From Oscillospiraceae bacterium (GTDB taxonomy: Bacteria > Bacillota > Clostridia > UBA1381): a stretch of DNA of 32,205 nucleotides. Shown in pieces: positions 2,783-32,205 of this stretch. A program made the translations under genes and the position numbers. Within the stretch, counting starts at the first letter, position 1. Each line of letters opens with the position of its first letter. The notes under the pieces are model-generated. The model did no database searches. It saw only the letters and a list, made by a program, of their open reading frames with translations, and was not told the origin of the DNA. Location of the stretch: positions 1-32,205 of the forward strand of contig JAFLUB010000033.1 in NCBI GenBank assembly GCA_022509025.1, given 5' to 3'.

Positions 2783-2857
2783 AATAACAGAACCCGACAC
2801 GCCTCTCAACGATGCGGACCACGTCGGGTCATTTAATTTATACGGAAGTGAAGAAAT

Positions 2858-2980
2858 ATGTGTAAAAAAGAATATCAGCTGCCTTTGGATATAGATGATC
2901 AGGTTGAGAATTTAAAAGATTTAGGAATTATCATATCAGATGAAAATGATGTTAGGGATTTTTTGAATGACGTAATGTAA
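2858..2980 (+). CDS. Short 40-residue protein, possible Abi-like N-terminal remnant
   Basis: An ORF of 40 codons follows a GGAAGTGAAG site. Its sequence begins MCKKEYQLPLDIDDQVENLK and continues DLGIIISDENDVRDFLNDVM. The pattern (a 'QVENLK..GIII.DE' run followed by 'FL..V') resembles the first 40 residues of Abi_2-type abortive-infection proteins, which normally continue for about 250 more residues. Here it stops at TAA (2978-2980). It is either a truncated remnant or a stand-alone small protein. It lies 56 nt before the endonuclease start and shares its promoter, so it could be a leader or partner of that gene. Confidence 0.4.
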   Translation: MCKKEYQLPLDIDDQVENLKDLGIIISDENDVRDFLNDVM

Positions 2981-3036
2981 TAAAAATGTGCAATAATTAA
3001 AAAATAGATTTTTTGAGTTTATGGAGGTTAATCGTT

Positions 3037-3969
3037 ATGGTAAATAGGTTTGAATATCTTGTACATACCCTTTCTCGTACAAAGAGAAAAAATTATGAAA
3101 ACTATGTTGTAAATCGCATTTGGAATCTATTGAACGATACTGAGCTAAAGCCTGTCACCCAGCAGTATGTGAAAAGACCAGAGGGTGGTTATGCTTACAT
3201 TGATTTATATTTTCCTCAGTTGAATATAGGAATAGAATGCGATGAATTACATCATCTTTCTCAGGCTGAAGCAGATGAATTAAGATTCCAGGATATAAAC
3301 GGGGCTATATGCGGGTATAAGGAAATTCGTATCCCTATTTTTAATAATGATAAGCCCATTTTGGATAAAGATGGTAAGGAAACAGGTAAATATGAATACC
3401 TTTCACTTGAGGAAATCAATAAATCTATTGATGAAGCTGTTAAAAAAATCCAAGACAAAAAAGCCGAAATGAAAAATTTTAAGCCTTGGAGTGATGAGCC
3501 TGATGTCAACAAGGCTTTAGAAAGGGGAAAAATTACAGTAAAAGATGATTATATTTTTGATCAACTTGATGTACGGCATTTTTTCGGGAGAGAAAATACT
3601 TCTCAGCTAAGCTATTATAAAATAAAGGATAATGGAGATCATTTATGGATTCCAAATTTAGCGATAGAGAAAGATGGCAGGTACGCTGCCCCAAGGAAAG
3701 GTCTTGAATATTTGAATATTCTTTCTAAAGATGGAAAGACAATTTATGAATCTATTAAAGACGAAGAAGGCATCAAAATAGTAAAAAAAGGAGAACCTTT
3801 TAGGAGAATTGTATTCACCAAGTATAAAGATTCTGTATTAAATATTACATTTATGAAATTTGCTGGGGTTTTTCAACGGGACGCTGAAATAATATATCTC
3901 GATGTTGATGGAAGACCTGCACCTTTTTGTGTTCATCACTTTGTTGATGATGAGGTTTACCCAGATTAA
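3037..3969 (+). CDS. Probable modification-dependent endonuclease (PvuRts1I/AbaSI-like)
   Basis: 310 residues. The N-terminal half looks like a Vsr/PD-(D/E)xK nuclease: D56 in YIDLYFPQLNIGIE, then E67, D69, E70 and H72-H73 in the IECDELHH motif, followed by a helix with RFQDI. The C-terminal part (about 190-310) has the look of an SRA-like base-flipping domain, with LWIPNLAI, RIVFTKYKDS and KFAGVFQRD. This order and total length match the PvuRts1I/AbaSI family, which cuts DNA carrying hydroxymethylated or glucosylated cytosine and so targets modified phage genomes. The ATG at 3037 has GGAGG 9 nt upstream; an upstream TTG at 3013 includes that site and is rejected. The gene is alone in a cassette between two 190-bp repeats. 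The family call is from memory of motifs. Confidence 0.65.
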   Translation: MVNRFEYLVHTLSRTKRKNYENYVVNRIWNLLNDTELKPVTQQYVKRPEGGYAYIDLYFPQLNIGIECDELHHLSQAEADELRFQDINGAICGYKEIRIPIFNNDKPILDKDGKETGKYEYLSLEEINKSIDEAVKKIQDKKAEMKNFKPWSDEPDVNKALERGKITVKDDYIFDQLDVRHFFGRENTSQLSYYKIKDNGDHLWIPNLAIEKDGRYAAPRKGLEYLNILSKDGKTIYESIKDEEGIKIVKKGEPFRRIVFTKYKDSVLNITFMKFAGVFQRDAEIIYLDVDGRPAPFCVHHFVDDEVYPD

Positions 3970-17517: not shown

Positions 17518-17546
17518 TTGACGAACGGAAGGAAGTAAGCTATAAT
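17518..17546 (+). promoter_or_regulatory. Strong sigma-A promoter reading into the hairpin array
   Basis: TTGACG (17518-17523), 17 bp, TATAAT (17541-17546). The -10 and following bases (TATAATAACCTTAGGGTGT) recur exactly at 17639-17657. Confidence 0.65.
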
Positions 17547-17657
17547 AACCTTAGGGTGTTACCAAAGGCAGAGCCTTTGACACCCTTAAGAACATTGAAT
17601 CATAACGCTGCGCACACGTTGCGTGCTTGCAGTTATGATATAATAACCTTAGGGTGT
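17541..17657 (+). repeat. 19-bp direct repeat with hairpins between
   Basis: TATAATAACCTTAGGGTGT occurs at 17541-17559 and 17639-17657, 98 bp apart. After the first copy, CTTAGGGTGT pairs with ACACCCTTAAG around an inner CAAAGGC-AGA-GCCTTTG hairpin. Between the copies, ATCATAAC pairs with GTTATGAT. Confidence 0.7.
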
Positions 17658-17660
17658 GTA

Positions 17661-17955
17661 GTATTCGCACAGCGAATACGCAAGTATACGAGTCAAGCAA
17701 ACGCCAGGATAAGCAACTTCACGAAGTGAAGTTTGCGACACTATACGAGCGCGCCGGTGTGACGTCATGAAGCGAAGCGGAGTGACAAGGCAACGAAGTT
17801 GCCGCAACAAGGAGGCGCATAGGCGATGTATAGTCTGACCGAAGGTCAGCCAAAAGAATACAGAGTATCGAAGTATACTTATCACGCAGCAAAATATTTT
17901 CCAGTTTGCGACAATGCGGAGCATTGTGACGAAGTATACCGGCACGGAGTGCCGG
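17661..17955 (+). repeat. Array of triloop hairpins, dispersed repeat copy 1
   Basis: Perfect stems around three-base loops: GTATTCGC-ACA-GCGAATAC (17661-17679), AACTTCAC-GAA-GTGAAGTT (17715-17733), GGCAAC-GAA-GTTGCC (17789-17803), CTGACC-GAA-GGTCAG (17835-17849), ACAATGC-GGA-GCATTGT (17911-17927) and CCGGCAC-GGA-GTGCCGG (17939-17955). The block from GCGACACTATACGAGCGCGC to GGCGATGTATAG (about 17735-17832) is nearly identical to about 28967-29063. Confidence 0.8.
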
Positions 17956-18108
17956 AAAATAGGTAAGGAGTATTGCGGACACGCACACGCAGACAAATTA
18001 AAATTTGTCAGTTAGCGGTATTGGTTGCCGCTCATTGCCTATGCACATCCGCACACGCAGATAAATTTCAATTTTCGGGTAAGCTGACTGACGGTTGGAG
18101 GAAGTAAT

Positions 18109-28857: not shown

Positions 28858-28933
28858 GGGGGTGTAGCTCAGATGGGAGAGCGGTTGCTTCGCATGTAAC
28901 AGGCCAGGGGTTCGAATCCCCTCATCTCCACCA
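28858..28933 (+). tRNA. tRNA-Ala (anticodon CGC)
   Basis: A complete cloverleaf of 76 nt. Acceptor GGGGGTG pairs with CATCTCC, including the G3-U70 wobble that marks alanine tRNAs. D-arm GCTC...GAGC; anticodon stem GTTGC/GTAAC with loop TTCGCAT (anticodon CGC, reading GCG); T-arm AGGGG-TTCGAAT-CCCCT; discriminator A and encoded CCA at 28931-28933. Confidence 0.95.
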
Positions 28934-28944
28934 AAGCCGCTTTC

Positions 28945-29136
28945 GCGACGAAGTCGCAGTCAGCGGCGACACCATACGAGCGCGCCGGTGTGACGTCATG
29001 AAGCGAAGCGGAGTGACAAGGCAACGAAGTTGCCGCAACAAGGAGGCGCATAGGCGATGTATGGTCAGCCCGGAGGGCTGGAAAAGCATGCGGCAATGCG
29101 AAGCATTGTGACGAAGTATACCGGCACGGAGTGCCG
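28945..29136 (+). repeat. Array of triloop hairpins, dispersed repeat copy 2
   Basis: GCGAC-GAA-GTCGC (28945-28957), GGCAAC-GAA-GTTGCC (29020-29034), CAGCCC-GGA-GGGCTG (29066-29080), CAATGC-GAA-GCATTG (29094-29108), CGGCAC-GGA-GTGCCG (29122-29136). Against copy 1 the core is nearly identical, the CAATGC loop is GAA instead of GGA, and CTGACC-GAA-GGTCAG is replaced by another perfect stem. Confidence 0.8.
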
Positions 29137-29159
29137 AAATTTTATAATATAAAATGTTA

Positions 29160-32098: not shown

Positions 32099-32140
32099 AA
32101 ATAAATTATAGTTTGACGGTATGTTGATGGCGTGCGTTAG

Positions 32141-32177
32141 CCTCCCTGCAACGCGCCTTTGGCGCTTTGGAGGGAGG
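32141..32177 (-). repeat. CCTCCC/GGGAGG hairpin element, copy 2
   Basis: Inverted relative to 23601-23637. CCTCCC (32141-32146) pairs with GGGAGG (32172-32177); the inner hairpin is GCGCC-TTT-GGCGC (32153-32165). Confidence 0.65.
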
Positions 32178-32205
32178 TGGCATTTTAGAGCGACAGCGAA
32201 AAAAT

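Follow-up and report, generated by a model that had tools for sequence, protein, structure and literature searches.

Self-nesting dispersed repeats of one Clostridia genus, probably non-autonomous mobile elements, with a transcript predicted to form a three-way junction capped by C-GNA-G hairpins

The window, i.e. the whole 32,205-nt stretch of DNA analysed here, is contig C27 of a host assembly comprising 85 contigs and 2,489,293 bases with 87.55% completeness (C, G and L denote contigs, genomes and loci). Two of its intergenic regions carry arrays of short perfect hairpins (Table 1). Copy 1 is situated behind a promoter-like site and ahead of a subtilase gene (Peptidase_S8), and copy 2 starts at about 28936, immediately downstream of a tRNA gene; both placements agree with the preliminary description, which had put the first array in a protease leader behind a promoter and the second after a tRNA. 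The same description had counted eleven perfect hairpins, nearly all with GAA or GGA loops. This count was reproduced, with GAA or GGA in ten loops and ACA in one. Six perfect triloop hairpins were found in copy 1, while copy 2 has four with stems of at least 6 bp (at 29020, 29066, 29094 and 29122) and an additional 5-bp hairpin with GAA loop (28945-28957). In the whole window, 9 hairpins of at least 6 bp possess GAA or GGA loops, against a mean of 0.48 and a maximum of 3 in 50 dinucleotide shuffles. A general genome-wide excess of GAA hairpins was rejected as the explanation: among 27 GAA/TTC loops found in 329,348 bases of genome stretches (3.3 in shuffles), inspection assigned 12 to this repeat family and 3 to a separate tandem unit and left the others unassigned, and as the stretches were chosen partly for holding copies, these numbers give no genome-wide estimate. 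An intrinsic terminator was also rejected, with no terminator-like site in copy 1; a scan called one in copy 2 (hairpin 29122, tail AAATTTTATA), and this call is not trusted. Just 5' of copy 1, positions 17547-17660 hold about one unit of a separate repeat of ~98 bp (a hairpin, GAACATTGAA and TTATGATATAATAACC), which recurs in tandem twice at L024:15800-16250 and three times at L025:7800-8450, each time before an open frame.

Table 1. Coordinates of the features of copies 1 and 2 in the window
Feature	Position	Strand	Remarks
Sigma-70-like promoter TTGACG-17-TATAAT	17518-17546	+	11/12 match; predicted; copy 1 would fall in the subtilase leader
Copy 1, element A, 5' hairpin H1 (GTATTCGC ACA GCGAATAC)	17661-17679	+	Hairpin scan
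Copy 1, element A, left half	17679-17712	+	P1 5' arm GTATAC (17684-17689), AAGCAA junction; 97% identity to positions 1-34 of the A query lacking B
Copy 1, element B inside element A	17713-17884	+	A query skips from position 34 to 42 here
Copy 1, element B, 5' hairpin (AACTTCAC GAA GTGAAGTT)	17715-17733	+	Hairpin scan
Copy 1, element B, core	17739-17835	+	Predicted fold P1 {P2 {P3 {P4, P5}}}; perfect GAA hairpin at 17789-17803
Copy 1, element B, 3' hairpin CTGACC GAA GGTCAG	17835-17849	+	Abuts P1 3' arm
Copy 1, element A, right half	17885-17959	+	A-query positions 42-116; P4 remnant, hairpin P6 (17911-17927, GGA loop), P1 3' arm (17934-17939), 3' hairpin CGGCAC GGA GTGCCG (17940-17954, within the perfect hairpin 17939-17955), then A-rich tail
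tRNA-Ala(CGC)	28858-28933	+	Adjoins copy 2 on its 5' side
Copy 2, element B, 5' hairpin	28936-28967	+	Internal loop TTTC/AGTC, GAA loop
Copy 2, element B, core	28970-29066	+	98% match to copy 1 core
Copy 2, element B, 3' hairpin CAGCCC GGA GGGCTG	29066-29080	+	Two stem pairs compensated
Copy 2, element A, 3' part (P6, P1 3' arm, 3' hairpin)	29089-29139	+	100% to positions 64-114 of the A query lacking B

Alignment of the two copies upheld the earlier statement that they share an almost identical core. The core is 97 bp long, and over core and 3' hairpin together (111 nt) the copies show 7 differences. Six of these make up three exactly compensating pairs, namely T4-A94 to C4-G94, T98-A110 to A98-T110 and A100-T108 to C100-G108 from copy 1 to copy 2; the remaining one changes the central base of a loop. 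The first of the pairs links bases 90 nt apart. The replacement of the stem CTGACC-GAA-GGTCAG by CAGCCC-GGA-GGGCTG and the change of the loop alone, from GGA to GAA, in the CAATGC hairpin were likewise found as described. The 5' hairpin of copy 2 has an internal-loop design which is also present in type I copies of other species.

Further copies of the core, for which a search had been suggested, were found at nine places in the host assembly at E<=2e-20; four more rows of the same search were chance matches of 14-16 bases and were excluded. A sister species has the core at one place. The end of contig C42 and the start of C60 overlap by 80 identical bases and may represent one locus, giving eight or nine core loci. 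Two related elements, A and B, can be told apart. Element A is composed of H1, a P1 arm GTATAC, GAGTCAAGCAAAC, the hairpin TTTTGC-GNA-GCAAAA and GTTTGCG in its 5' half, followed by the hairpin CAATGC-GNA-GCATTG, GACGAA, the second P1 arm GTATAC, the hairpin CGGCAC-GGA-GTGCCG and AAAA in its 3' half, a general layout from which individual copies depart. Separate queries with the 5' and 3' parts brought out four loci that contain A without B (L035, L036, L037 and L040 on contigs C9, C2, C43 and C22). In copy 1, an element B of 172 bp (5' hairpin, core, 3' hairpin and ~35 bp) is enclosed by A, and on C16 B likewise lies inside A with shifted edges (A-query positions 26 and 38). B without A is present on C41, on C67 in part, and twice on C15, where one copy is located in a 16S leader. 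In copy 2, a B precedes the 3' part of A. Reduced forms were also observed: H1 is fused to a remnant of the 3' hairpin at two loci on C34 and also on C6, and C3 has H1 by itself. Copy 1 and the C42 copy share 92 bp of A and the start of B at 99% identity, while their flanks are different. The build is thus modular, with A without B, A with B and B without A all represented, and the elements are short non-coding units in several copies with unrelated flanks, as is typical of MITEs. The two arrays of the window are two copies of one dispersed repeat family, and copy 1 is an element B nested in a related element A. The arrays had been described before as arrays of hairpins, whereas the core has a long-range fold and copy 1 is made of two nested elements. 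Two direct units of ~200 bp ending in TGTCGACAGTCTGAG were noticed ahead of a core copy at L005:900-1500, and also at L029:1900-2900.

RNA folding of the core gave the shape P1 {P2 {P3 {P4, P5}}}, with z scores of -2.97 for copy 1, -4.02 for the host copy in the 16S leader and -1.59 for the core of G003. In the energy fold of copy 1, B is predicted as an extra branch within the closed P1 helix of A; in the C16 copy, B's own P1 is lost in the minimum-energy fold. Among eight aligned cores, whose kinship can inflate measures of pairing and covariation, 96.5% of cells were paired and the covariation score was 0.174 against 0.118 in shuffles, values reached by 0/500 shuffles in both cases. Changes on both sides occurred in 6/31 pairs (reached by 22/500 shuffles), further pair types showed no excess (445/500 reached the value), and structures slid by 1-3 columns scored far lower than the true register. 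When all types were considered, P1 had 10 distinct arm pairs in 27 instances, with 68 Watson-Crick pairs, 1 GU pair and no mismatch among the distinct forms; copies with decayed P1 (e.g. L009 and L052) fall outside this count because the search patterns spelled out the P1 arms. The abutting 3' hairpin had 9 distinct forms in 19 instances (51 Watson-Crick, 1 GU, 2 mismatches). Arms swapped between forms of equal length still pair at 80% for P1 and 71% for the 3' hairpin.

The preliminary description had taken conserved loops with compensated stems as a sign of selection on structure. This stands in so far as single hairpins and long-range helices both covary, so that the folded single strand looks conserved; DNA template switching is another published route to perfect, compensated stems (PMC8794818). 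Compensation is observed, and its origin is RNA selection, DNA template switching or both. In the extreme form of the latter, the fold would be under no selection at all, replication template switching would make and repair the stems, and the repeats would otherwise be inert debris. Template switching can build perfect stems and restore pairing (PMC8794818), the distinct stem forms have few GU pairs, and several pairs change together between copies, all of which fit such an origin. However, P1 has hairpins between its arms, which are ~90 nt apart in the core, and it covaries nevertheless; P2 shows one double change, unpaired motifs, AAGCAA among them, have been kept between A and types I-IV, and copies lie mostly in sense. 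Debris free of selection is accordingly regarded as very unlikely, and covariation of the long-range helix speaks for the folded strand being under selection.

Loops follow a common rule. In 28 copies, perfect triloop hairpins with stems of 5 bp or more were tallied, 90 in all, with A/T-only stems dropped, L002 and L004 counted apart, and L062 and L152 left out. The loop is GNA on the sense strand in 65/90 and TNC in 3/90; 81/90 loops end in A and 88/90 are preceded by C. Exceptions are P5 of type I (TTC, TTT or CTT) and H1 (ACA, ATA, TAT, AAA or GAA). Other recurrent palindromes with GNA and ACT loops were seen in G001 (L180:2150-3000, L174:15050-15400 and L178:17250-17550), i.e. GCTCCCCT..AGGGGAGC, GTCAGC-GTA-GCTGAC and ACCGCC-GAA-GGCGGT. 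A strand-specific loop could belong to an element that acts as single-stranded DNA, like IS200/IS605 or REP, with a Y1 transposase recognising its C-GNA-G hairpins in the lagging-strand template. The C-GNA-G motif, e.g. d(GCGAAGC), is described as an extraordinarily stable DNA mini-hairpin (PMC4686876), which would favor this alternative. On the other side, the core of copy 1 folds weakly as DNA (z -1.26 against shuffles) compared with its folding as RNA, and the GTAG tag of REPs (PMC3733652) overlaps H1 in some A copies and was not seen before B or types I-IV. A single-strand DNA element is therefore considered decidedly unlikely, though somewhat less so than inert debris.

Orientation relative to neighbouring genes was scored at host loci where both neighbours agree or only one is known. 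Sense orientation was found at 10/11 such loci (binomial tail 0.006): copy 2 (tRNA-Ala/NTP_transf_2), L005 (NLPC_P60/SBP_bac_3), L006 (MreB/FabA-like), L007 (DNA_pol_A, i.e. PolA/ZnuA), L008 (16S), L009 (thioredoxin/aminotransferase), L037 (response regulator/histidine kinase), L040 (SLH/dockerin), L042 (integrase/rhamnosidase), and L002 with L004 counted as one locus (S18/sigma factor). The decayed copy L052 is antisense. Copy 1 and L036 with divergent neighbours, L035 and L043 with convergent neighbours, the bare palindrome L041 and the C6 copy (L101) were left out. Genes often run along the direction of replication. For this reason, the sense bias cannot separate an RNA from a lagging-strand DNA.

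Sequences 5' of the arrays in 16S leaders are presumably boxA-like. The boxA-like pattern was found with up to 3 mismatches in 52/70 genomes of the family, and the reversed control gave 0 matches; the GAACATTGAA part of the ~98-bp repeat resembles it as well. Thirty of its loci were inspected, which are part of all places, and several end too early to judge. Triloop hairpins are missing from L074, L083 and L087; L080, L085, L086, L088 and L091 have a single hairpin and then a common downstream sequence; the leader L081 of G006 has two hairpins. A hairpin with a core-like array is present in L084 (G001), L089 (G010), L008 (G000) and L014 (G003), in each genome just 3' of the boxA-like sequence. 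The leader hairpin (TTTACGAAGTAAAC-like) recurs behind the array in G010 and G001. In G003, the leader on contig C413 has a 95-bp insert compared with that on C123, a single base differs in the 89 bp that follow, and no clear target duplication is visible at the 95-bp difference. As G003 is 8% contaminated, its two leaders may stem from two strains.

These positions bear on another explanation, a functional cis-acting RNA kept by the host in the leaders and trailers of rRNA, tRNA and mRNA, for instance as a processing or antitermination site. The place just after the boxA-like sequence in four genomes, the location 3' of a tRNA gene for copy 2 and 5/7 type I loci, the covariation, P1 included, and the sense orientation all speak for it. 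Against it stand the 16S leaders that lack the element, both in other species of the genus (L083 and L087 have no hairpin, L086 just one) and in one of the two leaders of G003, neighbour genes that have no common theme (PolA/ZnuA, MreB/FabA-like, thioredoxin, a two-component system, S18), and copies that nest, truncate and collapse. This explanation is unlikely, though it is placed above the single-strand DNA element.

Some copies possess terminal repeats. L043 has AATTATAG at the left and CTACAATT at the right, with TA outside both ends. Both AATTRTAG (left) and AAACTAYAATT (right) are carried by L043 and, in less complete form, by L041 and L042, while the left end alone was found at L002 and L035 and the right end alone at L005, L037, L052 and L101. 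The AATTGTAG/CTACAATT repeats are thus present in some copies and rarely at both ends, and neither end was found at the copies in 16S leaders. The terminal-end pattern has 33 genomic sites, and its reversed control has 13. TA stands at some ends, and no convincing target duplication with an empty site was seen. The same ends also close other repeats, such as a ~250-bp repeat with GAA/AAA triloops (L102 and L108), and these common ends suggest a set of MITEs that may share one transposase. The right end of the window (32101-32205) is the edge of a ~250-bp MITE-like repeat with AATTGTAG/CTACAATT ends and inner GAA/AAA triloops. A partner of the IS630/mariner kind was rejected: DDE_3 (PF13358), the sole transposase family looked for, was not found in the host assembly at its given completeness.

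Relatives were searched within the genus, family and order. Model R1, built on the core, matched G003 at 5.7e-17 and G010 twice, weakly; with the host included, 3/16 genomes of the genus were matched at E<=0.05 and, under stricter filters, 2/70 of the family at E<=0.01. On the 16S-leader form of G010, the match of R1 is weak and shifted in register (E 0.016 and 0.027 per genome), and in 65 kb of sequence R1 scored type I loci at E 0.02-0.3, at the level of unrelated places. The exact core pattern in GTDB contigs, a search which may omit the host's own record, was present in one record, a Clostridia MAG from goat duodenum, at the same place as in G003. The type III query, the leader array of G010, matched 5/16 genomes of the genus at E<=0.01, with E<1e-6 in G001, G010 and G015 and weak matches in G000 and G014; the G014 match sits in an apparent coding sequence and was taken as chance. 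The matched copies in G001, G010 and G015 are dispersed and have the same order of parts; related forms are thereby present in three more species of the genus. With the type II query, 4/95 genomes of the order gave matches at E<=1e-5; all four belong to this genus, and the match in G011 covers the 5' hairpin only. Matches of the A query outside the host (E 0.001-0.04) were taken as members only if the type II or III query scored the place highly. Seven loci were grouped as type I (L133, L137, L139, L140, L142, L143 and L144), three as type II (L138, L145 and L146) and one as type IV (L152). Within the fetched flank, 5/7 type I loci (L133, L137, L140, L142 and L143) have a tRNA gene on the 5' side of the element and in the same direction. 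In the MAFFT alignments, the outer helix of type I stayed unaligned, which stood in the way of a covariance model joining A, I-IV and B. Because the R1 scores are weak, it is the site, the order of parts and the fold that speak for a common descent of B and types I-IV. Among the genomes searched, the family is confined to one genus.

L192 lacks the stretch between two copies of TGCAGAAAA that is present in L138. Part of the size variation can thus be attributed to deletion between short direct repeats and not to transposition. L152 and L196 (G001, C17) hold a type IV tandem array with units ~153 bp apart, two of them full and a third represented by its 5' part. At L140, L144 and L133 (G001 and G015), the 3' end of a tRNA is followed by a similar block before the element, composed of GTCGCA..GTGCGGCA, a hairpin with a T tract, and then its complement; at L144 the tRNA end is apparently a fragment only.

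Comparison with Rfam 15 at gathering threshold gave no family match for the repeats in the window, where only tRNA and a distant abiF RNA were matched, and 19 loci gave tRNA and 16S rRNA alone. At E<=5, the only result was a sub-threshold microRNA match at 17552-17589. A known RNA family of Rfam 15 was therefore rejected, no match lying above any gathering threshold. Within 2793-3969, the abiF match (39.6 bits, gathering 37) precedes an open frame carrying PvuRts1I-like and SRA domains (PF21598 and PF18491) instead of an AbiF gene. Copy 1 had no match among plasmids and phages, nor the core pattern among viral contigs, and on these negative searches a plasmid, phage or viral origin was rejected. 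Titles and abstract openings among the papers listed in literature searches contained no description of this family, which is not proof of its being unpublished.

Taken together, these are dispersed, self-nesting repeats of one Clostridia genus, likely non-autonomous and mobile, whose transcript is predicted to be a three-way junction capped by C-GNA-G hairpins. A non-autonomous mobile element was among the options named in the preliminary description and is the best of them, whereas nesting, the long-range fold and the 16S rRNA leaders had all been missed there. Unrelated flanks, the presence and absence of B inside A, and the two different leaders of G003 suggest movement. The copies would move as DNA by means of an enzyme supplied in trans. 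Their modelled fold may let a transcript carry the insert without misfolding, and copies would therefore survive in leaders, in rRNA leaders and behind tRNAs, mostly in sense; being self-contained, the fold would do little harm within transcripts, even inside another copy. Template switching at the strongly folding C-GNA-G hairpins might help to keep the stems perfect, a guess that concerns the hairpins, and deletions between short direct repeats also shape the elements. A bolder and doubtful reading would see a self-nesting, RNA-insulated parasite, in which each unit is a complete three-way-junction fold and takes up another as a branch while the C-GNA-G loops act as snap-back points that rewrite stems in one step. 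As such uptake would break neither fold, entry even into 16S rRNA leaders would be possible, and with one-step rewriting the sequence would drift fast while the fold stays fixed. Near-identical copies with compensated differences offer a natural test between selection and one-step DNA template switching. Some 16S leaders are occupied and others are not, even in one assembly, raising the question of how large an insert pre-rRNA will bear. With the fold and the model, element B can be annotated.

The earlier statement that no described element has this design was too strong. BOX of Streptococcus pneumoniae (PMC3049150) comprises small modular intergenic repeats that are predicted to be RNA-structured, occur in few related species and are thought to be parasitic; its inner module is optional and leaves the outer fold unchanged. 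The present elements resemble BOX in design, being modular with optional inner modules and a predicted structured transcript; they differ in that a whole element lies inside another, C-GNA-G loops are shared by the hairpins and 16S rRNA leaders are occupied. Like the Correia/NEMIS, ERIC and RUP MITEs (PMC2229807, PMC10969869), they are gene-free units of 100-300 bp with a predicted structured transcript, and some copies have short terminal inverted repeats flanked by TA, whereas many copies here have no terminal repeats. With REP and tagged palindromic repeats (PMC3733652) they share extragenic perfect palindromes, often in transcribed intergenic regions, but the unit here is much longer, has several helices and carries no consistent GTAG/CGTC tag. 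RNA hairpins made by template switching (PMC8794818) are similar in perfect stems and multi-base compensatory replacement; those came from reconstructed histories of RNA genes, whereas the present case is a repeat dispersed in many parallel copies whose loop motif recurs. By analogy, the elements appear to work like BOX and other bacterial MITEs, membership in any named family not being claimed, and what is striking about them is the nesting of whole elements, the recurrent loop on changing stems and the presence in rRNA leaders.
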